DNA of 64,000 nucleotides, from contig NZ_QCXS01000003.1 of NCBI RefSeq assembly GCF_003260015.1, forward strand, positions 858,315-922,314, given 5' to 3'. This stretch comes from Nakamurella deserti (GTDB lineage Bacteria; Actinomycetota; Actinomycetes; Mycobacteriales; Nakamurellaceae). Position numbers and translations under genes: made by a program. The notes beneath the pieces were generated by a model that was not told the origin of the DNA, made no database searches, and saw only the letters and a program-made list of their open reading frames with translations. Of this stretch, positions 918 to 46,575 are shown in pieces (the first letter of the stretch is position 1; each line of letters starts with the position of its first letter).

Positions 918-2882
918 ATGCCCCGACCGCTGGACGACGACGACTCGGACGGCGCCCGCGGGGGTCGCCTGCGCCGCTGGGGACGGTCCCTGATCGGCCG
1001 TGGCCGCGAGGAACAGGCCGCCGAGGAGGCGGCCGACGCCGCCGCCGCCGAGGCCGCGCGCGAGCAGGCCGAGCGGGACGCCGCCGCCGAAGCTGCGGCG
1101 GCCGCCGCGGCGGCGCAGGCCGCCGAACGTGAGCAGGCCGAACGCGCGGCCGCGGCACGGGAGGCCGCCGACGCCGAGGAGCGGCGCCGGGCCGAAGCGG
1201 CCGCTGCCGCGGAAGCGGAAGCCGCGGCGGTCGCCGAGCGCGACGCCGCCGCCCGGGCCGAGGAAGCGGCCGCTGCGCTCGAGGAAGCCATGCAGGCCGC
1301 CGCCGACCGGGAGGAGCTCGCGCGCGCCGAACGCGCGGAGACCGAACGCGCACAAGCCGAACGCGCACGCGAGCAGGCCGCCCACCGCGCCGCGCAGGAG
1401 GCGGCCGAGGCCGCCGACCGGGAACAGCTCGCGCGCGCCGAGCACGCGGAAACCGAACGCGCACAAGCCGAACGCGAACGCGAGCAGGCCGCCCACCGCG
1501 GCGCGCAGGAGGCGGCCGAGGCCGCCGACCGGGAACAGCTCGCGCGCGCCGAACACGGGGAAACCGAACGCGCACAAGCCGAACGCGAACGCGAGCAGGC
1601 CGCCCACCGCGCCGCGCAGGAAGCGGCCGAGGCCGCCGACCGGGAACAGCTCGCGCGCGCCGAACACGCGGAAACCGAACGCGCACAAGCCGAACGCGCA
1701 CGCGAGCAGGCCGCCCACCGCGCCGCGCAGGAAGCGGCCGAGGCCGCCGACCGGGAACAGCTCGCGCGCGCCGAACATGCGGAAACCGAACGCGCACAAG
1801 CCGAACGCGCACGCGAGCAGGCCGCCCACCGCGCCGCGCAGGAAGCGGCCGAGGCCGAGGAGGCCGCCGCAACGCATCGCCGCGCCGACGAGCAGGCAGC
1901 GCGCGAGGCCGCCGACCGCCGGGCCGCCGAGCAGGCGGCAGCGGTGGAAGCCGGCCGCGCGGCCGACGAACGCGCCCACGCCGCGCGGGCCGAGCGCGAG
2001 CAGATCGCCGAACGCGAGCGCGAGCAGGCCGCTCACCGCGCCGCCCGGGAGGCCACCGAGGCCGCCGACCGGCAGGCCGCCGAGGTGGCGGCGGCCGCCG
2101 AGGCCAGCCGCCTCGCGGCCGAGCGCGCCGCCCAGGAGGCGACCGCCCGTCAGGCTGCGGAGGTCGCCGCCGCGGAGGAGGCGAGCCGCCGGGCCGCGGC
2201 CGCCGGCGAGCAGGAGGCCGCTGCGCGTCAGGCCGCCGACGTCGCCGCGGTCGGGACACCCGCGTCGGCCACGGTGTCGGACGCGCACGTCCCGCCGCCG
2301 TTGAGGGAGCGACCGGCGGCGACGCTGCCACACGAGTCGGTGTTCGTGCCCTGGACGCCCGGGCCCAAGGGTGGCCGCATCGTGCTCGACAAGCTGGACG
2401 TGGCCACGAACCGCCGACTGGTCAACGCGGCCCTGGTCGAGGGGATCAACGCCGAAGGTCCCATCCACATCGAGCGTCTGGCCCGGTTGATCGCCGCGTC
2501 GTTCGAGGTGCGCAAGTTGTCGCCCGGCCGGGTCACCGACATCGCCGCGGTGATCCCGAAGTCGACCGTTCGCACAGAGGACGGCACGGTGTGCTGGCCG
2601 GCCCGGGTGGACCCCGTCGGGTACGAGGGTTTCCGCAGCTCCCCGGAACCGGAGCTCCGGCCGACCGAGCACATCCCGCGCCACGAGCTGGCCAACGCGA
2701 TGCGCGACGTGGTCACGCTGCAGGGACCGACCGCGGTGGCCGAGGTCTTCGGGATCACCCGCCGCATCTTCGGCGGGAAGCGGGTCACCGCCAACGTCGA
2801 GGCCCGCATGGCGGCGGCCCTCGACGAGGCGGTCACCGAGGGGCGCCTCGCACGCGACGGGGACATCGTCAGCGTCGGCTGA
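918..2882 (+). CDS. Ala/Glu-rich coiled-coil repeat protein with DUF3320-like C-terminal domain
   Basis: This 654-residue protein starts at ATG 918 behind a purine-rich ribosome site. A short basic N-terminus leads into about 400 residues of almost uninterrupted Ala/Glu/Arg/Gln heptad-like sequence, predicted to be a long alpha-helical rod. Inside it lie five near-identical 37-residue repeats (residues about 130-314). A Pro-rich linker precedes a globular tail (about 480-650) with the pattern of DUF3320: a paired-helix segment, then CWPARVDP, an FRSS segment, PRHELANAM and a final helical stretch. In known proteins DUF3320 closes large superfamily-I helicase-like proteins (DUF4011 type). Here no helicase is attached. 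Function is unknown; a scaffold or nucleic-acid-associated tether is inference. No signal peptide or membrane segment is seen. Confidence 0.7.
   Translation: MPRPLDDDDSDGARGGRLRRWGRSLIGRGREEQAAEEAADAAAAEAAREQAERDAAAEAAAAAAAAQAAEREQAERAAAAREAADAEERRRAEAAAAAEAEAAAVAERDAAARAEEAAAALEEAMQAAADREELARAERAETERAQAERAREQAAHRAAQEAAEAADREQLARAEHAETERAQAEREREQAAHRGAQEAAEAADREQLARAEHGETERAQAEREREQAAHRAAQEAAEAADREQLARAEHAETERAQAERAREQAAHRAAQEAAEAADREQLARAEHAETERAQAERAREQAAHRAAQEAAEAEEAAATHRRADEQAAREAADRRAAEQAAAVEAGRAADERAHAARAEREQIAEREREQAAHRAAREATEAADRQAAEVAAAAEASRLAAERAAQEATARQAAEVAAAEEASRRAAAAGEQEAAARQAADVAAVGTPASATVSDAHVPPPLRERPAATLPHESVFVPWTPGPKGGRIVLDKLDVATNRRLVNAALVEGINAEGPIHIERLARLIAASFEVRKLSPGRVTDIAAVIPKSTVRTEDGTVCWPARVDPVGYEGFRSSPEPELRPTEHIPRHELANAMRDVVTLQGPTAVAEVFGITRRIFGGKRVTANVEARMAAALDEAVTEGRLARDGDIVSVG
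1305..1859 (+). repeat. five tandem 111-bp in-frame repeats
   Basis: Copies begin with GAC at 1305, 1416, 1527, 1638 and 1749, each encoding 37 residues starting DREQLARAE (first copy DREELARAE). Copies differ by only a few substitutions (for instance REREQ versus RAREQ, and RGAQ versus RAAQ), implying recent duplication or ongoing homogenisation. The period is not a multiple of 7, so a continuous heptad would need one stutter per unit. Confidence 0.9.
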
Positions 2883-13150: not shown

Positions 13151-14044
13151 TCAGCGCTTGCCGGCGTTCGGTCCCCACTGTGCCAGCACGGCCGATTCGA
13201 TGATGGTCGCGATCTCGTACAGCACGATCGAGATGACCACCGAGAACACCACGATGGCCCAGACGCCGGTCTTGTTGGCGCCCTGGTACTTGTTCAGCAG
13301 ACCGCCGAAGCCTTCGCTGCCGGACAGCCACTCGGCCAGCATGGCACCGACGACGGCCCCGGGTACGGAGATCCGCACGGCGGCGAAGAAGTGCGGTAGC
13401 GCGGACGGGATCCGCACTCTGAACAACGCGTCCCGGTCGGAGCCGCCGTAGACCTTGACCACGTCCAGCGACTGGGGCGAGGCCGACCGCAGTCCGATGA
13501 CGATGTTCACCAGCGCCGGGAAGAGCACCACGATCGCGCCGATGGCGGCGATCGCGGCCTTGCCGGTGAACATCATCAGCAGCACCGGCGCCATCGCCAC
13601 CAGCGGCACCGAGCGCAGCAGCATCGCGATCGGCATGAACGCGAACTCCACCGCCGGCAACAGCACGAACAGGGCGGCGACGACCAGCGCGATGGCCAGG
13701 CCGGTGAAGAAGCCGATGGCCGCGTCGACGAGCGTCGTGCCCAGCGCTCCCCACAGCTCCGAGCGGGCCGCTTCGGCCGACAGCGACTGGGGCCGGATGC
13801 CGCGCGTCGTCGGAGCCGAGGTGAACAGGTAGTCCCAGACGTTGCCCGGCGTCTTGCCGACCAGCGGGTTGACGTCGAAGACCTTGAACAGCGCCACCCA
13901 GATGACGCCGAGGCCGACGAGCGCCGAGATCAGCACGGTGGCCGACAGCAGGGTGCGCCGGGCGACCACCCGGGCGATGGAGGGCTGCGCGTCCTCCGTG
14001 GCCGTGGGGGTGGCGCGAGCGGCGGGATCGAGAACGGCGGTCAT
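13151..14044 (-). CDS. ABC importer permease (SsuC/TauC/ThiX type), second copy
   Basis: This 297-residue permease has about six membrane spans and the BPD-type EAA loop (VKVYGGSDRDALFRVRIPSA). A long N-terminal segment and a periplasmic loop (FTSAPTTRGIRPQSLS) precede the core. It is separated by one base from the upstream permease gene, so two different permeases probably form a heterodimeric channel rather than the usual homodimer. The solute is inferred to be a purine, pyrimidine or related nitrogen compound from the surrounding catabolic genes. Confidence 0.85.
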   Translation of the reverse strand: MTAVLDPAARATPTATEDAQPSIARVVARRTLLSATVLISALVGLGVIWVALFKVFDVNPLVGKTPGNVWDYLFTSAPTTRGIRPQSLSAEAARSELWGALGTTLVDAAIGFFTGLAIALVVAALFVLLPAVEFAFMPIAMLLRSVPLVAMAPVLLMMFTGKAAIAAIGAIVVLFPALVNIVIGLRSASPQSLDVVKVYGGSDRDALFRVRIPSALPHFFAAVRISVPGAVVGAMLAEWLSGSEGFGGLLNKYQGANKTGVWAIVVFSVVISIVLYEIATIIESAVLAQWGPNAGKR

Positions 14045-14045
14045 G

Positions 14046-14909
14046 TCAGCTTCCGGCCTTTCCGGCGGTCCACGGGGTGACGAACCGGGCGACCAGACCG
14101 ACCAGGAAGTAGGCCAGGCCGGCGACCGCTCCGCTGATGAGGGCCAGGAACCACAGGGTGGGGACGTCGCCGACGGCCTGCGCGGAGCGCAGCAGCTTGC
14201 CGAGCTTGTTCTCCCCGCCGCTGCCCAGGTACTCGGCCAGGATGGCCCCGAGGAACGCGGCCGGCGCGGCGATCCGCAGCGCGCCGAAGACGCTGGGCAG
14301 GGCCGCGATCAGCTGCACCTTGCGCAGCATCGTCCAGCGGCCGCCACCGTAGGCCCGGACGACGTCCAGGCTCGTCGCCGAGGCGGCCCGGAAGCCGAGC
14401 AGCGTGCCGACGACGGAGGTGAAGAAGACCGACAACGCGGCCAGGGTGATCGACGGGACCTGGGGGTTGTCCAGGCCGGCGACGATCACCAGCACCGGTC
14501 CGATCGCCACCAGCGGGATGCAGTAGGTGACGATCGCCAGCTGGGTGACGATCTGTTCCAGCCGGGGCAGCAGCAGGACCAGCGAGGCGAACAGGAAGGC
14601 GGCGAGGTTGCCCCACAGGAACCCCCACGCCGCGGAGCCGAGCGTGACCTGCAGGTTCGTCCACAGCGACACCCACTGGGCGCCGTCGAAGAACCGGGCG
14701 GCCACCGAGAACGGGGTGGGGATGGCGCGGCTGGACTGGAACAGGGTGATCGACGCGATCCACCAGATCAGCAGGATCAACGCGACGCCGATGGTGGCAC
14801 CCACCCAGGACGGCAGCTGCGTGATCCGCCGGCCCAGTGGCGTGCGCGGATCACCCGCGGGCGCGGGCGGGGGTGCCGTCTGGACCGGAGTGGCCACGGG
14901 GGTGCTCAT
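14046..14909 (-). CDS. ABC importer permease (SsuC/TauC/ThiX type), first copy
   Basis: This 287-residue permease is related to the following gene. It has a Pro-rich cytoplasmic N-terminus, six hydrophobic spans and the EAA-loop equivalent VVRAYGGGRWTMLRKVQLIAAL. ATG 14909 overlaps the ATPase stop codon by one base (TGATG), indicating coupled translation. It is part of the ATPase-permease-permease set with the binding protein encoded just upstream. Confidence 0.87.
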   Translation of the reverse strand: MSTPVATPVQTAPPPAPAGDPRTPLGRRITQLPSWVGATIGVALILLIWWIASITLFQSSRAIPTPFSVAARFFDGAQWVSLWTNLQVTLGSAAWGFLWGNLAAFLFASLVLLLPRLEQIVTQLAIVTYCIPLVAIGPVLVIVAGLDNPQVPSITLAALSVFFTSVVGTLLGFRAASATSLDVVRAYGGGRWTMLRKVQLIAALPSVFGALRIAAPAAFLGAILAEYLGSGGENKLGKLLRSAQAVGDVPTLWFLALISGAVAGLAYFLVGLVARFVTPWTAGKAGS

Positions 14910-15757
14910 CAGTGCTCGTCCGATCCGGTGCCGCCGCGTCCGAAGAGGATCTCCGACAGCTGATCGTGGTAGGCGTGGAACTCCGGGGTGCGCATCATGT
15001 CGGGGGTCCGCGGCCGGGGCAGGTCGATCGACACCACCTCGGCGATCCGGCCCGGCCGGGGACTCATCACCGCGACCACGTCGGACAGGAAGATCGCCTC
15101 GGAGATGCCGTGGGTGACCATCAGCGTGGTGGCGGGCTTCTCGGTCCAGATGCGCAGCAGCTCGACGTTCAGCCGCTGCCGCGTCATGTCGTCCAGCGCG
15201 CCGAACGGCTCGTCCAGGAGCATCACGCTGGGTTTGACGGCCAGGCACCGGGCGATGGCGACTCGCTGGCGCATCCCACCGGACAGCTGCGCGGGTTTGG
15301 CGTCCTCGAACCCGGTGAGCCCGACGAGCCCGACCAGGTCGTCGATCAGGCCCGGTTCCGGGGTGATGCCGGCGACCTCGAGCGGCAGCCTGATGTTGTT
15401 GCGCACGGTCCGCCACGGCAGCAGCGCGGCCTCCTGGAAGGCGATGCCCAGCTGGTGGGTGCGCTGGATCTCCAGCGTCGACATCCCGTTGATCAGCGCC
15501 TTGCCCGCCGTCGGCGTCTCCAGACCGGCGAGGATGCGCAGGATGGTGGACTTCCCGCAGCCTGACGGACCGAGCAGCGACAGGAACGAGTTCTTCGCCG
15601 TCCCGAGGTCGGTGTCGGTCAGGGCCGTGACCGAGGTGCGGCCCATCGAGAACTTCTTCGACAGTCCCTGCAGGCTGATGCCGGTGGCCGACTTCGGGTC
15701 GTACGCCGCCCCCCGGGCCGACGGTGTGGCAACCGGTTCGGTGGTGGAGTGCGTCAT
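14909..15757 (-). CDS. ABC importer ATPase (SsuB/TauB type)
   Basis: This 282-residue ATPase contains Walker [12 protein letters not shown]-loop FQEAALLPW, signature [13 protein letters not shown], Walker [13 protein letters not shown] and switch VTHGISEA, all matching nitrate/sulfonate/taurine-type importers. AGGAAGGG lies about 9 bases ahead of the ATG. It is cytoplasmic and energises the two following permeases. Confidence 0.92.
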
Positions 15758-15863
15758 CGGGGGTGCCCTTCCTCGGAGTGTGCGGCGGCCGACACCGGGG
15801 CGGTCGCCGTCGGGACCATGGTCGTGGTGGCACGGGTGTCCGCGCCACCACGACCCGTCGGCG

Positions 15864-17054
15864 TCAGCCCGTGATCAGATCCGGGTACGCCGCGTAGACC
15901 TCGTCGAGCAGCGACAGGTCGAACAGCTCCTCGGCGGAGGTCTCGTAGCCGGTGAGCTTGATGGCCTCGACGATCTGCCCCTGCAGCTCCTCGGTCAGGG
16001 TGAAGATGCCGTTCTGCTTCGTGTCGTCGGAGACGATCAGCTCGTTCTGCGCGGTGGCCTGCTTGACCTCGTTCTCGACGTCGAGGTTGAGGTCCTTGCC
16101 GTACTTGTTGGCCGACAGCTCCGCCGAACCCTGCGGGTCGGCGATGGAGTCGGTCCAGCCCTTGATCTCGGCCCAGAGGAACGCCTTGAGCATCTCGCGG
16201 TCGTTGTCGATGGTGTCCTGCAGCACGGTGAAGGTCTCGGCGGTCAACGGCAGCCCGTTGTCGGCGAAGACCAGCGTGACCGGGGTGAAGCCCTTCGCCT
16301 CGGCCAGGAACGGCTCGTTGGTGACGTAGGACATGAAGCCGTCGACCTGGTTCTCGTACAGCGGCGCCGGGTCGTACTGCACCGGCGTGATCGTCAGCTG
16401 GTCGGCGGTCAGTCCGTTCGCCTTGAGGAAGCCCTCGAAGATCGACTGGTTGGTGCCCGCCTGGACGCCGATGTTCTTGCCGACGAGGTCGGCCGGTGTG
16501 CTGATCGGCTTGCCCTCCTGCAGCGACAGGATGCAGAACGGGTTCTTCTGATAGGTCGAGCCGATGATCTTCAGCGGCGCGCCGGTGTCGAGGATGTAGC
16601 GGGCGGTGGCGTCCGGCGCGGACAGTCCGATCTGCACCTCACCGGTGGCGACGAGCTCTTCCGCCGAGGACGGGACCGGCCCGGACACCAGCTCGACGCT
16701 CGAGAACCCGGCCTCGGTGTAGTAGCCCTTCTCGGTGGCGAAGAACTCACCGGCGAACTCGTAGTTCTTCACCCACGACAGCTGGAGTTTGATGTCGCCG
16801 TACGTCCCGGCCGGGGCCATCGTCATGCTGCCACCGGCGGCCGAGGAGGACATCGAGGCGGACGCCTCACCCGCCGACGACGCGACCGCCGAGGTGGCCG
16901 ACGAGGCGGAACTCGCCGCCGGCGTCTCCGCGCCGCCACACGCGGCGAGGATCCCACCGCCGCCCAGAGCGGCGGCGGACAGACCGGCCACCCGCAGGAA
17001 ACTGCGGCGGGACACCGGACCGCGGTCGTCGGGGCGGATCAGCGGGTTGGTCAT
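15864..17054 (-). CDS. NMT1/THI5-like ABC substrate-binding lipoprotein, Tat-type signal
   Basis: This 396-residue protein starts with a twin-arginine signal ([14 protein letters not shown]) and a lipobox LAAC at residue 39, so it is predicted to be exported by Tat and lipid-anchored outside the membrane. A low-complexity Ala/Ser linker (about 48-80) precedes an NMT1/THI5-like domain with the opening [17 protein letters not shown]. Such proteins bind small heterocycles or aromatic and sulfonated solutes. ATG 17054 has GGAG upstream. The gene lies between the urease genes and the hydroxylase genes, suggesting import of a nitrogen heterocycle (inference). Confidence 0.87.
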
Positions 17055-17331: not shown

Positions 17332-18057
17332 TTACCGGTCGCCGATGGCCGGGCGGACCCCCGCACGCCAGTGCTGGAACAGCGCGCCGGCGCCCGAGCG
17401 GTGGGCGTCGCCACCGAGGTGGCGGGCGACCGCGCCCTCACCGGCGAGCGGGAACAGCCGGACGCCGGGCGGCGGGTCGGCCGGCGGACGACGACCGAAC
17501 AGGCTGACGGTGTCCACGATGCGGTGTGCGCCGAGCAGCCCGACGCGGTGCCGGCGCACCGGGTCCGTGAGGTCGAGGTCCTCGGCGAGCAGTGGGCGCG
17601 CGCCGTGGGCGACGCGCGTCCGCGACCGGAGGGCACCGCCGCGTTCGCCGGAGCGGCCGAGCACCAGCGTCTCGCGCAGCAGCGCGACCCCGGTGGCCGC
17701 GAGGTCGACCCGGGTGGTGCGGGTCACGTCCGCCCCGTCCGCCACGACGAACGGCTCGGCCTTCCAGGTCAGCGAGGCACCGTCGGCGACGGTGATGTCG
17801 ACCCGCCACGACGACGCGCCACCCCTGCCGTCGTAGGCTACGGTGCCCGCCGTGTCGACGAGCTCGAGATGACAGCCCGCCCCGACGTCGACGCCCAGGG
17901 CCACGTGGTCACCGGCGAGCAGCAGCGCCGTCGTGCCGACCAGCGCGATGCGGGCGCCGTCGGCGGTGGTGCGCAGGGTGCGCGGGCTCAGGTGCGACGT
18001 GCGCAGCGTCAGCTCCGGACGGCCGCCGGTGCCCGCCCGGATGCCGACGAACGTCAC
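17332..18057 (-). CDS. ureD: urease accessory protein UreD
   Basis: This 241-residue protein has the UreD/UreH pattern: [14 protein letters not shown] opening, [20 protein letters not shown]-like beta strands (here with AGDHVAL), TWKAEPFVV and a conserved RET segment. UreD bridges apo-urease to the UreF-UreG complex and channels nickel to the active site. The GTG start overlaps the ureG stop by 4 bases, making it the last gene of ureABCFGD. A TAA stop follows, then a 277-base gap. Confidence 0.9.
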
Positions 18058-19085
18058 GTCCGGGCGGGCGTGGGCTCGTGGGTGTGGGTGTGCCCGCCGT
18101 GGTCGTGGGTGTGCTCGCCGGTGTGCGGGTGCACCTGCGCCCCGCCGTCGGCGTGGCTGTGCCCATGTCCCCCGCCGTCTTCGTCGGCGTGGCTGTGCAC
18201 AAGTCCCCCGCCTTCTTCGTCGGCGTGGCTGTGCAGATGTCCCCCGCCTTCTTCGTCGGCGTGGCTGTGCAGATGTCCCCCGCCGTCTTCGTCGGCGTGG
18301 CTGTGCAGATGTCCCCCGCCTTCTTCGTCGGCGTGGCTGTGCACATGTCCCCCGCCTTCTTCGTCGGCGTGGAAGTGCGGCGCCATGGGGCCGGGATCCT
18401 GGGGCACGTGGTCGCCGGAGCGGTGCGATGACAGCATCGTGTGCACCCAGGCGGTGAGGGCGTCGATGGACGTGCGGTCCAGGCGGGACAACCCCAGGAC
18501 CGGACGGCCGTCCCGGGCGGCCTCACCGTCGGCGATCATCTGCGGGACGTCGACCCCGACGTACGGCGCCAGGTCGGTCTTGTTGACCACCAGCAGATCG
18601 GCGCGGCCGATCCCGGGACCGCCCTTGCGCGCCACGTCACCGCCGCCGGCCACGTCCAGGACGAAGATCTGCGCGTCGACCAGCGCCGGCGAGAAGGTGG
18701 CGGTCAGGTTGTCGCCGCCGGACTCGACGAGCACCACGTCCAGCGGCGAGAAGTCCCGCTCCAGGTCCTCGACGGCGAGCAGGTTCGCGGTGACGTCGTC
18801 GCGGATGGCGGTGTGCGGGCACGCGCCGGTCTCGACGGCGCGGATGCGGTCGGGGTCGAGCACCCCGGCGGACCGCAGGAAGCGGGCGTCCTCGTCGGTG
18901 TAGATGTCGTTGGTGATGACGCCGAGCCGCAGCTCGGTGGCCAGCTCGCGGCAGATCAGCGCGATCAGCGAGCTCTTGCCGGTACCGACGGGTCCGGCGA
19001 TGCCCAGACGCAGCGAACGGGCCGCGGTGGTGTCGGGCAGGTGGGAATCAGGCAGGTGGGAATCAGGCAGGTGGGAATCAGGCAC
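18054..19085 (-). CDS. ureG: urease accessory GTPase UreG with histidine-rich C-terminal tail
   Basis: The GTPase core has the P-loop GPVGTGKSS at residues 31-39, the nickel-binding Cys-Pro-His (89-91) in TGACPHT, VESGGDN as G2/switch region and NKTDLAP as the guanine-specificity motif. After about residue 230 an unusual 107-residue tail follows with 27 histidines: six 12-residue units such as [12 protein letters not shown], then [19 protein letters not shown]. Known UreG proteins usually have no tail or a His-rich N-terminus. No ureE is present, so the tail may store or deliver nickel (inference). GTG 19085 overlaps the ureF stop by 8 bases. The N-terminus has three PDSHL repeats before the core. 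Confidence 0.93.
18162..18377 (-). repeat. six tandem 36-bp repeats coding the UreG His tail
   Basis: Six contiguous 36-base units encode residues 237-308 of UreG, each giving HSHADE(E/D)GGG plus two variable positions (first unit begins HFH). Units alternate EE and ED versions, suggesting expansion by duplication of multi-unit blocks. A degenerate 10-residue unit and a non-repetitive His-rich end follow. Confidence 0.9.
19038..19082 (-). repeat. three tandem 15-bp repeats at the ureG 5' end
   Basis: The unit CCTGATTCCCACCTG occurs three times, encoding PDSHL x3 directly after the GTG start of ureG. The first copy contains the TGA that ends ureF. The unit length is a multiple of 3, so copy-number change would keep ureG in frame. 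Confidence 0.85.
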
Positions 19086-19863
19086 GGAACAACCTCTGGG
19101 TCGTGGTGGCATGGAGTTCGGCCCACTCCTCGATGAGGGGTGCGGCCAGGGCGGGGATCTCGTCGATGGTGCCGATCGGGGCGAGCCGGGCGGCCAACCG
19201 TTCGATCTGCGGTTGGGCCTCGAGGACCCAGCGGGTGGTGAGGACCGGATCGACCGGCTCGATCTTGAGCACGGCCGCGGCGATGGTGGCGGCGTCGTCG
19301 TTGCCGATCAGCCGGACCAGTTGCGCCGCCGACAGACCCGAGACGGCGGCGGTGACGCCCAGGACGACCGCGCGGCAGGGGTGCCGCAACGCGGTCAGCG
19401 CCGCCAGGCCGGCCGCCGCCGGCCAGAGCGAGCGCAGCAGCCGTAGGTAGCCGCGGGCGGCCAGTGCGGACGCCTCCCGTAGCGCCGGGCTGACGGTGCG
19501 GGCCTGCCAGGCCTCGTCGACGGCCGCCAGTCCGTCGAAGCGGCCGTCGATCGCGAGGTGCCGGGCGACGACGGCGGTCCCGGCCTCGACCGCGGTGACG
19601 GTGGCCAGGCGCGCGGCGATCAGCTCCGGGACCTCGGCGACCGACACGCCGTGCCGCATGGCCGGTTCCAGCCCCGCGGACTGGGTGTGCGCGCCGGTCG
19701 GCAGCCGGGCGTCGGCCAGCAGCATCAGCATCAGCTCCGCCGACCCGACGCTCGCCTCGGTGGGAGCGGCGGCGCTGTCCGGCCGCGGGTCGCCGGATCG
19801 TGGCAGTTCCCGCCCGCTCGGCGGATGGGGACCGCCACGATGCGGCAGGGTGCGGGCCACCAT
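19078..19863 (-). CDS. ureF: urease accessory protein UreF
   Basis: This 261-residue, largely helical protein has the UreF start motif [23 protein letters not shown] at about residue 45 onward and conserved Arg/Glu helices through RLFRA at the end. UreF binds UreD and UreG in the nickel-loading complex. The first 40 residues (Pro/Arg/Ser-rich) have no counterpart in the family, so the real start might be internal. However, ATG 19863 overlaps the ureC stop by one base (TGATG), which favours it. Confidence 0.88.
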
Positions 19864-21560
19864 CAGAACAGCGAGTAGAGCTGGGCCAGCGGCAGGCTCG
19901 ACGCCGGCGCGGGCACGATGAGCTCGTCGTCGACCCAGATGGAGAACGTCTCCGGGTCCACCCGGATCGCCGGCAGCACGTCGTTGTTGATCATCTGCGC
20001 CTTGCCGACGTCGCGGGTCGGCTTGACCCCGTACAGCCTGCGACGCAACCCCAGTCGGCCGGCGAGTCCGTCGTCGACCGCGGCCGGGGAGACGAACGAC
20101 ACCGACAGGTCGGCGCCGATCGCGTCCCCGAACGTCGGGCGCATCAGCACCGGCTGCGGGGTCGGGATGGAGGCGTTCGGGTCGCCCAGCGCCGCCAAGG
20201 CCAGCGCGCCGCCCTTGATCACCACCGACGGCCGGACACCGAAGAACTTCGGCTCCCAGAGCACGAGGTCGGCGACCTTGCCCGCTTCGATCGAGCCGAT
20301 CTCGTCGTCCAGGCCGTGCGCGATCGCCGCGTTGATCGTGTACTTGGCGACATACCGCTTGGCCCTGATGTTGTCCGCAGCGCCGCCGAGTGATCCGCGG
20401 CGCGCCTTCATCACGTGCGCGACCTGCCAGGTGCGGGTGATGACCTCGCCGATGCGGCCCATCGCCTGCGCGTCCGACGACGTGATCGACATGGCGCCCA
20501 TGTCGTGCAGGATGTCCTCCGCCGCGATCGTGGTCGCGCGGATCCGGGACTCGGCGAACGCCAGGTCCTCCGGCACCGCCGGGTTCAGGTGGTGACAGAC
20601 CATCAGCATGTCGAGGTGCTCGGCGATGGTGTTGACCGTGTGCGGCAGCGTCGGGTTGGTCGAGCCCGGGATCACGTTCGGCAGCCCGGCGATGGTGAGG
20701 ATGTCGGGGGCGTGGCCGCCGCCGGCGCCCTCGCAGTGGAAGGCGTGGATGGAACGGCCGCCGATGGCGCCGACGGTGCTGGCGACGTAGCCGGCCTCGT
20801 TGAGCGAGTCCGAGTGCAGCGCGACCTGCAGGCCCCAGTCGTCGGCGGCCCTCAGCGCGGCGTCGATGGCGGCGGGGGTGGAACCCCAGTCCTCGTGCAC
20901 CTTGTAGCCGCCCGCGCCGGCCAGCGCCTGCTCTTTCAGCGCGGCCGCCGACACGGTGTTGCCCTTGCTCATGATCAGGAAGTTCATCGGGAGCGCGTCG
21001 AGGGACCGGTGCAGCGACGTCAGGTGCCACGGGCTCGGGGTGACCGTGGTGGCCTTGCTGCCCTCACTCGGTCCGGTGCCGCCGCCCGCGAGGGTGGTCA
21101 GCCCGGTGGCCAGCGCCTCGTGGATCTGCGACGGCGACAGGAAGTGCACGTGCAGGTCGATGCCACCGGCGGTGAGGATCCGACCCTCGCCGGAGATGAC
21201 GTCCGTGCCGGGGCCGATCTCGAGGTCCGGGTGCACACCGTCGGCGATGTCGGGGTTGCCCGAGCGGCCGAGCGCGACGATGCGGCCGTTGCGGATGCCG
21301 ACGTCGGCCCGGACGATCCCCCAGTGGTCGAGCACGATCGCGTTGGTGATGACGGTGTCCAGGGCGCCGTCGGCGCTGGTCCGCATCCCCTGCGCCATCG
21401 ACTCCCGGATGGACTTGCCGCCACCGAAGACGGCCTCCTCACCGCCGGCCGTCCAGTCCTGCTCGATCTCGATCCACAGGTCGGTGTCGCCGAGGCGGAC
21501 CTGGTCACCGACCGTCGGGCCGTACAGCGCCGCGTACTCGGCACGACTGATCTCAACCAT
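19863..21560 (-). CDS. ureC: urease alpha subunit
   Basis: This full-length 565-residue catalytic subunit hydrolyses urea to ammonia and carbamate in the cytoplasm. Nickel-ligand motif HVHFLSPSQ, carbamylated-lysine segment [26 protein letters not shown] and flap cysteine segment MVCHHLNPA are all present, so the enzyme should be active once loaded with nickel. The ATG start overlaps ureB by 8 bases. Urea would come from allantoicase and the downstream ureidoglycolate step encoded 8 to 13 kb away. Confidence 0.97.
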
Positions 21561-21894
21561 CGAGAGCTCCCGTGCTGTCTTTGATCTGGAGGCCCGGCAC
21601 GATGCGGCGGCCCTTGAACGCGACCGCCGTCACCGTGCGGGAGGCTCCGGGTTCGAACCGCCGGGAAGTGCCCGACGGGATGTCCAGCCGGAAGCCGTGC
21701 GCCGCGGCGCGGTCGAAGTCGAGCGCGCTGTTGGACTCCGGCAGGTGCAGGTGCGAACCGATCTGCACCGGGCGGTCACCGGTGTTGACGATGACCAGCT
21801 CCAGACGCTCGGCGTCGGTGCGATCGGCGTTGAGCGTGATGGTGCCCTCGGCGGTGCGGATCGCACCCGGGCCGGACGACGAAACGGAAGCCAT
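21553..21894 (-). CDS. ureB: urease beta subunit
   Basis: This 113-residue protein shows the UreB pattern: [11 protein letters not shown], then [31 protein letters not shown] and [18 protein letters not shown]. It is a separate small subunit as in other actinobacteria, not fused with UreA. It follows ureA by 8 bases and overlaps ureC by 8. Confidence 0.95.
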
Positions 21895-21902
21895 GACCGC
21901 CC

Positions 21903-22205
21903 CTACTTGATGGGTGAGTGGATGGTGACGAGCTTGCGCCCGTCCGGGAACGTGGCCTCGATCTGGACGTCGGGGATCATCTCGGCGACGCCCTCCATGA
22001 CCTGGTCGCGGGACAGCACGTCGCGGCCCTGCTCCATCAGCTCGGCGACACTGCGGCCCTCCCGGGCGCGCTCGATGACCCAGGTGGTGAGCAGCGCCAC
22101 CGTCTCCGGGTAGTTCAGCACCACGCCGCGGGACAGCCGGTCGCGGGCGACCATGCCCGCCACGGACAGCAGCAGTTTCTCGGTGTCGGCCGGGGTGAGG
22201 TTCAC
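21903..22205 (-). CDS. ureA: urease gamma subunit
   Basis: This 100-residue protein is the standard UreA length, with [20 protein letters not shown], a [17 protein letters not shown] helix and the C-terminal [17 protein letters not shown] 22205 overlaps the preceding DUF6986 gene by 4 bases (GTGA), so urease synthesis is coupled to the malate synthase/DUF6986 genes. Confidence 0.96.
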
Positions 22206-23528
22206 GGGCGCGCCTCCTGGTCGGGGTCGGTCGGGGTCTCGGGCACGTCGACGCCGGGGACGGCGTTGCGGACCAGGTAGCGGCGCACGACCGCCGGTCC
22301 GATGCCGCCGGCCTCGTGCAGCTCGGCGGTGGTGACGGCTCCGCACCGCACGGCGGCCGCCAAGTGGCGGGCGAGCGCGAACGCGGTGGCAGGCTCGTCC
22401 ATCACGCCGGAACCGCTGCATTGCCGGTGGTAGTCACCGAGCCGGCGGGCGGCCTCGTCCGCGCCGGCGCGGAAGAACGCGAAGGTGGCCGCGAACCGGG
22501 TCGGCAGCTGCGCCGGGTGCAGGTCCCAGCCCTGGTAGATGCCCGACCGCAGCGCACGCCCCACCCCGTCGGCATGCGCCTCCCAGCGAGCCAGGACCGT
22601 CCCGTCGTCACCCACCGGCACCTTGTTGTCCGAGCCGTCGCTGACCCTGACCCCGGTCTCGGCCGCGGCCAGCTGCATCAGCGACTTGGCGAAGTCGGCG
22701 ACCGGGTGCCGCAGGTTCTGGTACGCCCCGAGGATGCCCAGGCTCGCGGTGTAGTCGTAGGTCCCGAAGTGCAGGCCGCTGACCCGGCCCTGCGAGGCGT
22801 GGATCATCGCCGCCACCGGGACCCGGCCGTCGGCCCCGAGCACCGTCTGCGGAGTCTCCACCTGGATCTCGAAACGCAGGCTGCCCACAGCGATCCCGTA
22901 CTGCTCCTCCAGCGCCGCCAGCACCTCGACGAACACCGAGACCTGCTGCTGAGAAGTGACTTTGGGCAGCGTGACGACGAAGCCCCCTGGAAGCACATCG
23001 GTCTCGGCGAAGAGTGCGTCGAAGAACAGACCCAGCGTGCGGAGCCCCCGGGCCCGGGTCTCCGGCGCGAGCGACCGGATGCGCAGCCCCCACGAAGCGG
23101 GCAGCTGTCGCGGGGTCGTCCCGGCCAGCTCGGCGACGGCGGCGGCCGCGCGGCGGGCGTGGGCGTCCTCGTCGGCGTCGTCCGCGGCCGTGCCGCGGTG
23201 CGCGCGGAAGCCGTCCTCGAAATCGATGCGCAGGTCCTCGATCGGCTCCGCGGCGAGCTTGGCCAGCGTGCGGGCGGCGAGGTCGGCCCGGTCCTGCGGG
23301 GCGGCCAGCGTCGCCAGCAACGCCTCCCACTGCCGCGGACGGTCGTCGACCGCGGCCGTCGCGGCCAGCCGCCACTCCCCCACCGTCGCGGCCGAGAACC
23401 TCGGCACCGGCACGTAGACGGTGTGCACCGGGCCCGGACCCGGCGGCCCGGGGTAGGCGTCCCGGTACCGCCGGTCCTCCTCGGCGAGGGCGGCGTCCCA
23501 TCCGGCGAGCCGGCCGGACGGCCAGCCG

Positions 23529-35370: not shown

Positions 35371-35482
35371 GGGATGAGGTTGACCGGTGAGGGTCGGGGG
35401 GATGACGCGGCTGTTACGCGCGGGCGGCCCGACAGGTGCCGGCGCGCGCGGGCGGCAGCGGCGACGGCACCGGCACCAGCAC

Positions 35483-35670
35483 CGGCAGCGGCAGCGGCAG
35501 CGGCAGCGGCAGCGGCAGCGGCAGCAACAGCAGCGGCGGTACCGGCGGCAGCAACAGCAGCGGCAGCGGCAGCAACAGCAGCGGCGGTACCGGCGGCAGC
35601 AACAGCAGCGGCAGCGGCAGCAACGGCAGCGGCAGCGGCAGCGGCAGCGGCAACAGCACCAGCAACAGCC
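35483..35670. repeat. GGCAGC-type microsatellite tract
   Basis: About 190 bases consist of GGCAGC hexamers interrupted by AACAGC and GGCGGTACC segments. A block with GGCGGTACC flanked by AACAGCAGC runs occurs twice (around 35525 and 35575), showing higher-order duplication. The plus strand is free of T apart from the two GGTACC sites, so strand composition is highly skewed. Confidence 0.85.
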
Positions 35671-46054: not shown

Positions 46055-46575
46055 TGCTGGCTCGGGACGGACCGGCCGGTCCGGCGGGGCCGCGGTCGGT
46101 CCGGCCGGGCGGGGCGGATCGGTTGGTCCAGCCGGGCAGGCGCCGGTCGGTCTTGGCGGGCGGGGCGGCGGTCGGTCCGGCCGGGCGGGGCGGATCGGTT
46201 GGTCCCGCCGGGCGGGGCGACTGTCGGTCCTGCCGGGCGGGGCGACTGTCGGTCCAGCCGGGCGGGGCGGATCGGTCCAGCCGGGCGGGGCGGATCGGTC
46301 CAGCCGGGCGGGGCGGATCGGTCCAGCCGGGCGGGGCGGATCGGTCCAGCCGGGCTGTTGGCGGTCGGTAGAGCCGGGCGGGACAGATCGGTTGGGTCCA
46401 GCCGGGCTGTGGGCGGTCGGTGGGCCGGGCGGGGCAGCCGGTGAGCCGGTCGACCGGTCCTGCCGGGCGGAACGCGGTCGGTCCAACCCGGCGGGCGGGC
46501 GCCGGTCGGTCTTGTCAGGCGGGGCGGCAGTCGAACCAACCGAGCAGGACGGACAGTCGGGCCAGCCGGGCGGGC
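46055..46575. repeat. degenerate 23-bp GC-rich tandem repeat field
   Basis: A run of about 520 bases is built from a roughly 23-base unit whose core is GCCGGGCGGGGCGGATCGGT. Four exact consecutive copies occupy 46261-46352 and the rest are diverged or partly deleted copies. Frames in both directions read as Pro/Gly/Arg-rich repeats with no independent support. The field lies directly behind the serS promoter and ahead of the divergent HNH gene. Confidence 0.85.

Follow-up and report, generated by a model that had tools for sequence, protein, structure and literature searches.

A histidine-rich, repeat-amplified C-terminal tail on UreG in an actinobacterial urease operon without ureE

In urease maturation, UreE hands nickel to UreG, whose CPH site forms upon GTP-dependent dimerization and releases the metal through UreF/UreD into urease (PMC10121161). 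In the text available from Haas et al. 2009, UreG bears a terminal histidine stretch in all but two of the genomes that have ureG and lack ureE, and such a stretch, whether N- or C-terminal, is proposed as a possible compensation for UreE (PMC2770081). Table 1 of that study includes Mycobacterium, Streptomyces, Arabidopsis, Sorangium, Herpetosiphon, and others, and Zambelli et al. 2007 is cited there for the compensation idea in M. tuberculosis UreG. Histidine-rich tails have also been described on UreE itself: the Klebsiella tail can reportedly be removed with little loss of activation (PMC13044922, PMC7055735), the Helicobacter pylori tail is reported to be necessary for taking nickel from HypA, and the addition of a His-rich segment to H. 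pylori UreE increased urease activity (PMC13044922). Bradyrhizobium HypB carries 24 N-terminal His residues and binds 9 Ni per monomer, and a storage role is supposed (PMC7055735).

We analyzed a 64-kb stretch of Nakamurella deserti DNA (the window), the minus strand of which reads ureA-ureB-ureC-ureF-ureG-ureD from 22211 to 17332. The genes are ureA, encoding the urease gamma subunit (21903..22211; NF009712, 152.2 bits), ureB, encoding the beta subunit (21553..21894; TIGR00192, 106.6 bits), ureC, encoding the alpha subunit (19863..21560; NF009685, 1000.1 bits), ureF (19078..19776, with a provisional start codon; PF01730, 46.6 bits), ureG (18054..19085), and ureD (17332..18057; PF01774, 88.4 bits). 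The ureG gene shares bases with both neighbors, its stop codon with the ureD start (GTGA) and its GTG start with the ureF stop, so the end of the tail described below is the end of the protein and the operon is tightly packed. Just 87 bases separate ureC from the ureF start used here, and ureE therefore cannot fit between them. Gene order and family scores together bear out the claim of an earlier note on this DNA that the six genes lie back to back without ureE. The same operon order holds in 18 of the 20 C-tail loci examined; of the other two, L051 is truncated inside ureC by the end of its contig, and L059 has ureD before ureG. The ureC-ureF gap of one congener (G004, locus L286) spans 1.2 kb and was considered as a ureE site, which we reject: the open reading frame there (L286, 5830-6612) belongs to the PEP_mutase family (221 bits), and an overlapping minus-strand frame gave no match.

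Downstream of ureD, profile matches identify a minus-strand ABC transporter (13151..17054) composed of an NMT1/THI5-like binding protein (15864-17054), an ATPase (14909-15757), and two permeases (14046-14930 and 13151-14044), and its order beside urease is the same in G004. More broadly, between 9222 and 25700 urease lies amid xanthine-dehydrogenase-like genes, the NMT1/THI5-type transporter, a DUF6986 gene, and a frame that is malate-synthase-like by its look, and this region is perhaps a purine or ureide breakdown cluster.

The ureG gene encodes 343 amino acids from its GTG start at 19085, with repeat extensions at the N and C termini of a GTPase core (residues 25-218; 18432..19013, minus strand). 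This core has a P-loop (residues 31-38), the ESGGDN and NKxD motifs, and the CPH motif (residues 89-91; 18813-18821), and its gene shares a urease operon with ureF and ureD. The protein scores 236.1 bits against TIGR00101, above the curated cutoff of 204.2, and 59.8 bits against the HypB model TIGR00073, below the cutoff of 121.2. A Pfam scan returned cobW and a sub-threshold MeaB match alone, with UreE_N and UreE_C domains absent, and the solved-structure relatives are PDB 5xkt and 4hi0. Across 25 aligned UreGs, no variation is seen in the CPH nickel motif or in the principal residues of the GTPase motifs (the invariant columns include G31, P32, V33, G34, G36, K37, C89 P90 H91, E121-N126, and N168 K169 D171). 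Judged from its sequence, the core is an ordinary UreG.

The C-terminal tail, taken from D230 (18057..18398, minus strand), holds 27 His residues and no Cys and is predicted to be disordered: the AlphaFold2 block means of pLDDT are 78-98 over residues 21-230 and 38-59 from residue 231 on. Counted from GPM (residue 232), it comprises 112 residues with 27 His, 22 Asp/Glu, and no Cys; counted from H237, it is the 107-residue extension with 27 His that the earlier note had described. Tandem Repeats Finder (TRF) reports a 36-bp unit in 6.3 copies with 95% matches at 18146-18372. Six tandem units (18156..18371) encode HADE[ED]GGG[HL][VLG]HS and are followed by a His-rich, nonrepeated end of 33 residues (18057..18155); that note also had six 36-bp repeats and a His-rich end. 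The N terminus carries an exact 15-bp repeat in 3.3 copies (19036..19084, minus strand; TRF) that encodes (PDSHL)x3 and is absent from the description in the earlier note. The protein thus has terminal His stretches of the kind tabulated by Haas et al., with 27 His in the C-terminal tail and three in the N-terminal repeat. The six 36-bp units vary at four positions, every one of them amino-acid-changing, and in unit 5 one His is replaced by Leu. With no synonymous change among the units, the array looks young, and with all changes altering amino acids and one His lost, it bears no sign of strict purifying selection.

Searching the 17 genus genomes with up to three mismatches, we found the 36-bp repeat nowhere outside the ureG of its own genome (G000, six copies) and that of G004 (three copies), whose tail consists of three copies of the unit and a shortened fourth. 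A degenerate form of the unit had no exact match in viral contigs, and none of 13 NicO permease loci carried the ureG repeat. G000 and G004 agree in all of the unit's first 35 bases, against 83% overall identity of the ureG cores (72% at third positions), and a recent exchange of the array between the two was therefore considered. Of the 12 third positions in the unit consensus, 1 differs, for which p is 0.11 at 28% divergence, so transfer need not be invoked.

TRF returned 31 rows, some overlapping, for the whole window. Among them are a 111-bp repeat in five copies with 96% matches (1299-1857), located in a long plus-strand frame (903-2882) and encoding a 37-residue repeat rich in Ala, Glu, and Arg; a 23-bp array in 14 copies with 79% matches (46083-46435), directly upstream of a minus-strand gene that looks seryl-tRNA synthetase-like in sequence; and a low-complexity array of GCGGCA in 33 copies (35452-35652) that is open in several frames.

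UreG C termini were compared across relatives, as the earlier note had suggested. Of the 17 genus genomes searched, 11 bear ureG, and all 11 carry a C-terminal tail with one shared opening motif, which also opens the tail in a genome from a different family of the same order (L022). The tail is present in the best 18 of 80 named loci, and the module that opens it is missing in the other 62. These best 18 belong to Microbacterium, a Microbacteriaceae MAG, Micrococcus, Glaciihabitans, Gordonia, Kineococcus, Pseudokineococcus, Microlunatus, Rhodococcus, a Nocardioidaceae MAG, Ruania, Phycicoccus, Nocardiopsis, Occultella, two Nocardioides, Saccharopolyspora, and Streptomyces griseus; one of them (L060) was missed by the motif filter and its tail was recognized by eye. 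The module, DPGPM-x-x-H-x-H, was found in 48 distinct proteins (47 counted plus L060), and DPGPM itself occurs in 19 of the 149 UreG genes of our class sample. All 50 rows with the module continue from DPGPM into x-x-H-x-H; the sequence beyond varies, and this drifting part remains His-rich. Across the 47 distinct tails, the number of His residues after DPG ranges from 3 to 27 with a median of 7, and the His fraction ranges from 0.11 to 0.40 with a median of 0.27.

A FastTree phylogeny of 175 UreG cores, constructed without the tails, places 46 C-tail rows and L194 on one side of a branch with support of 99; L194 (genome G245) was scored as having no tail and ends in DPGAPAPHVHR. By this core phylogeny, the C-terminal tail marks one actinobacterial UreG clade. 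The earlier note had considered a long C-terminal version unusual, which does not hold, as the tail is the rule throughout this clade. What stands out in the window is amplification: its 27 His residues, against the median of 7, are the highest count of the 47 tails, and G004 comes next with 21. Congeners, Micrococcus, Gordonia, and a Microbacteriaceae MAG carry single units of a like kind (HADEDGGYVHSH and similar), which suggests that the array arose by amplification of an old unit. Separately, C-terminal His tails without DPGPM were seen at L209 and L238 (genomes G073 and G289) and at L077 (Planotetraspora), and are perhaps independent gains; the tail in G073 also holds repeats of the SADGIS kind.

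The earlier note had named a ureE elsewhere in the genome as evidence against its reading, and we found none with either UreE domain. In the tail-bearing genome itself (99.55% complete), which has ureG, UreE_N gave no match at E 0.001 and no UreE_C match was found. Across the genus, UreE_N exceeded the cutoff in none of the 17 genomes, with sub-threshold matches (E <= 0.1) in six, that of the window's own genome covering 25 positions at 15.1 bits. UreE_C was found in one of the 17 (G005:C19:104170-104388, 25.9 bits), inside an 799-aa frame and in a genome without ureG. As positive controls, UreE_N exceeded the cutoff in Corynebacterium glutamicum and Haloferax volcanii, and UreE_C did so in C. 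glutamicum only. UreE_N was also absent from all 17 named tail-bearing genomes, of unstated completeness, that correspond to the best 18 loci minus L060. The HypB model found nothing over its cutoff in the window's own genome, where its sole match is UreG itself at 60.8 bits, and among the 17 genus genomes it exceeded the cutoff in G006 alone. In the class sample, no genome with one of the 19 C-tail UreGs has HypB; among the other 10 C-tail congeners, one does (G006), so that HypB was not found in 28 of the 29 C-tail-lineage genomes searched for it.

A nickel permease, which the earlier note had proposed to look for, is present: a NicO-family protein at 310 bits on another contig. NicO matches occur in 10 of the 17 genus genomes and in 8 of the 11 that bear ureG, leaving 3 of the 11 without a match. 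In G004, NicO and ureG are ~6 kb apart, with NicO located beyond the ABC transporter genes, which come after urease in the window as well. The third NicO copy of genome G015 (L049) is a weak match (45 bits), RcnA-like by its look, with a very long His/Asp loop that differs in sequence from the ureG repeat.

We then considered a class sample of 393 genomes, with ureG called at E <= 1e-40 and scoring limited to the 7 or 15 top candidates of each genome in the searches for UreG, UreE_N, and HypB. Of these genomes, 147 have ureG and 8 have UreE_N over the cutoff; UreE is missing in 139 of the 147, the ordinary state in this class. The resulting UreG set comprises 149 genes from 137 of the 147 genomes. 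We call a UreG UreE-linked when a UreE_N match lies no more than about 3.5 kb away, and we score a tail as at least three N-terminal or at least four C-terminal His residues; N-terminal starts were chosen by script, so the N-terminal counts are approximate. All eight UreE-linked UreGs of this set have no terminal His, and 119 of the 141 others meet the tail rule. Four genomes have both operons, and in each of them the UreE-less UreG of the set bears 3-4 N-terminal His, against none on its UreE-linked counterpart. A second UreE_N place was found in G406 (C30). The association of tail with UreE status (Fisher p 1.2e-6) ignores kinship; with just 1-2 independent pairs available in the tree, it is agreement with a known rule and not a fresh test. 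Terminal His tails tend to accompany a lack of UreE. By the tail rule above, 22 of the 141 UreE-less UreGs are tail-less, and 11 of these 22 come from genomes that lack HypB, so the tail is not obligatory. HypB was tried as an explanation of these tail-less proteins and rejected, since it is no more frequent in their genomes (11/22) than in those of UreGs with tails (54/119; Fisher p 0.82).

We consider it somewhat probable that the tail serves UreG as a flexible arm for holding nickel, amplified by tandem duplication. In a lineage in which UreE was not found and HypB was found in one of the 29 genomes searched, the UreG GTPase would catch cytosolic Ni(II) by its terminal His residues, and the captured metal would pass from the tail to the CPH site, raising the local supply of UreG's own site. 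GTP hydrolysis would then move nickel from the CPH site via UreF/UreD to apo-urease. Without UreE, a tethered multi-His arm could raise the odds of UreG being loaded. The short DPGPM-x-x-H-x-H module with a few further His would be ancestral. Tandem duplication in this genus would then have multiplied a unit like HADE..GGG(Y/H)VHSH, most of all in this species with its six units, and amplification should raise nickel capacity, with a presumed benefit, without creating a new step. A urease trimer needs six Ni. Scaled from published ratios, the tail would hold about 20 Ni per dimer by the HypB ratio and about 7-11 by those of the Proteus and Klebsiella UreE tails. In favor of this reading are the P-loop and CPH motif of the core, the disordered, Cys-free tail with its 27 His, the failure to find UreE or HypB beside a NicO permease in this genome, the spread of the tail through the genus and the named loci, the His-free termini of the eight UreE-linked UreGs, the C-terminal His tails seen outside the clade, and the analogy with Bradyrhizobium HypB. 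Speaking against it are the 22 tail-less UreGs without UreE, the clade members with 3-4 tail His, the dispensable UreE tail of Klebsiella, the purely amino-acid-changing differences among the repeats, and the three ureG-bearing congeners that gave no NicO match.

The earlier note had proposed that UreG carries its own nickel reservoir and that the chaperone step is built in. The reservoir is the better part of that proposal, and the built-in chaperone step goes beyond the evidence: the transfer site of UreE is folded (GNRH), the Klebsiella UreE tail is dispensable, and some members of the UreG clade have only 3-4 tail His. The UreE tail data from Klebsiella and H. pylori fit capture and storage better than a replaced hand-over. 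A more tentative extension, which we regard as possible but doubtful, is that the ureG 3' minisatellite makes nickel supply copy-number variable, such that species, and perhaps strains, would tune the nickel held through gain or loss of 36-bp units, each unit contributing one HxHSH cluster.

The strongest rival is that a short tail is functional and its six-fold repeat is a neutral minisatellite expansion, the extra His being harmless on a disordered end in a GC-rich genome. Other tandem arrays are present in the window (1299-1857, 46083-46435, 35452-35652, and others), the UreG N terminus also has its exact 15-bp repeat, tails with 3-4 His exist elsewhere in the clade, and the units lack synonymous change in an array that looks young. 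Against this, the His fraction remains fair to high across the 47 tails (0.11-0.40, median 0.27), and a second species, G004, has repeats of the same unit, though shared ancestry could account for the latter. On balance, we judge neutral expansion unlikely, though to be taken seriously.

Two other explanations are less likely still. The tail could be a general transition-metal sink off the urease delivery path, buffering or detoxifying Ni, Zn, or Cu. His-rich termini do bind several metals, B. japonicum HypB is described as binding Zn, Cu, Co, Cd, and Mn too (PMC7055735), and H. pylori Hpn as guarding against Ni overload (PMC4671568). However, terminal His residues are missing from the eight UreE-linked UreGs and present on most UreE-less ones, sometimes within one genome, a contrast that ties the tail to nickel supply for urease and makes a general sink improbable. 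A role without metal, in which the disordered arm docks UreG on UreF/UreD or urease with DPGPM as the contact and the His incidental, could draw on the constancy of x-x-H-x-H after the module in 50 of 50 rows and the variability beyond, but past the module His remains abundant even as the sequence changes, and we give docking very little credence.

The nickel-holding arm remains our preferred reading, and its clade offers means of studying it. UreGs with tails of 3 to 27 His form a natural set for asking what a His tail does, differing repeat numbers within one genus would make nickel capacity a controllable variable, and the genomes of this clade, with no UreE found in them and HypB likewise not found in 28 of the 29 examined for it, suit the question.

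The known systems resemble this UreG in part. The UreE tails of Klebsiella and Proteus are likewise flexible C-terminal His tails that add nickel capacity in urease maturation (PMC13044922), but UreE is a separate folded chaperone with a GNRH site at its dimer interface, and its domain was found neither in the window's UreG nor in the genome. The HypB "nickelin" of Bradyrhizobium and Rhizobium is, like UreG, a G3E nickel GTPase with a long His-rich terminus; it differs in serving hydrogenase and in having its His run at the N terminus, whereas the window protein is a UreG with a C-terminal tail. We found no repeated C-terminal UreG tail from actinobacteria in the open-licence literature searched, and no actinobacterial C-terminal UreG tail in the available text of Haas et al. 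2009 (PMC2770081). The UreGs of that study are the closest relatives in kind, being UreGs without UreE whose His stretch is proposed as compensation, and the compensation idea is largely prior knowledge, published in 2009. In the same text, the Herpetosiphon stretch is C-terminal, and that of Sorangium, with about 36 His by our count, exceeds the 27 of the window. The window UreG differs from the Haas set in its C-terminal tail, which is anchored on the DPGPM-x-x-H-x-H module specific to the clade and made up of repeats that are 36 bp long in the DNA. Its repeat-amplified C-terminal tail is a new form of the known His-tailed UreG.
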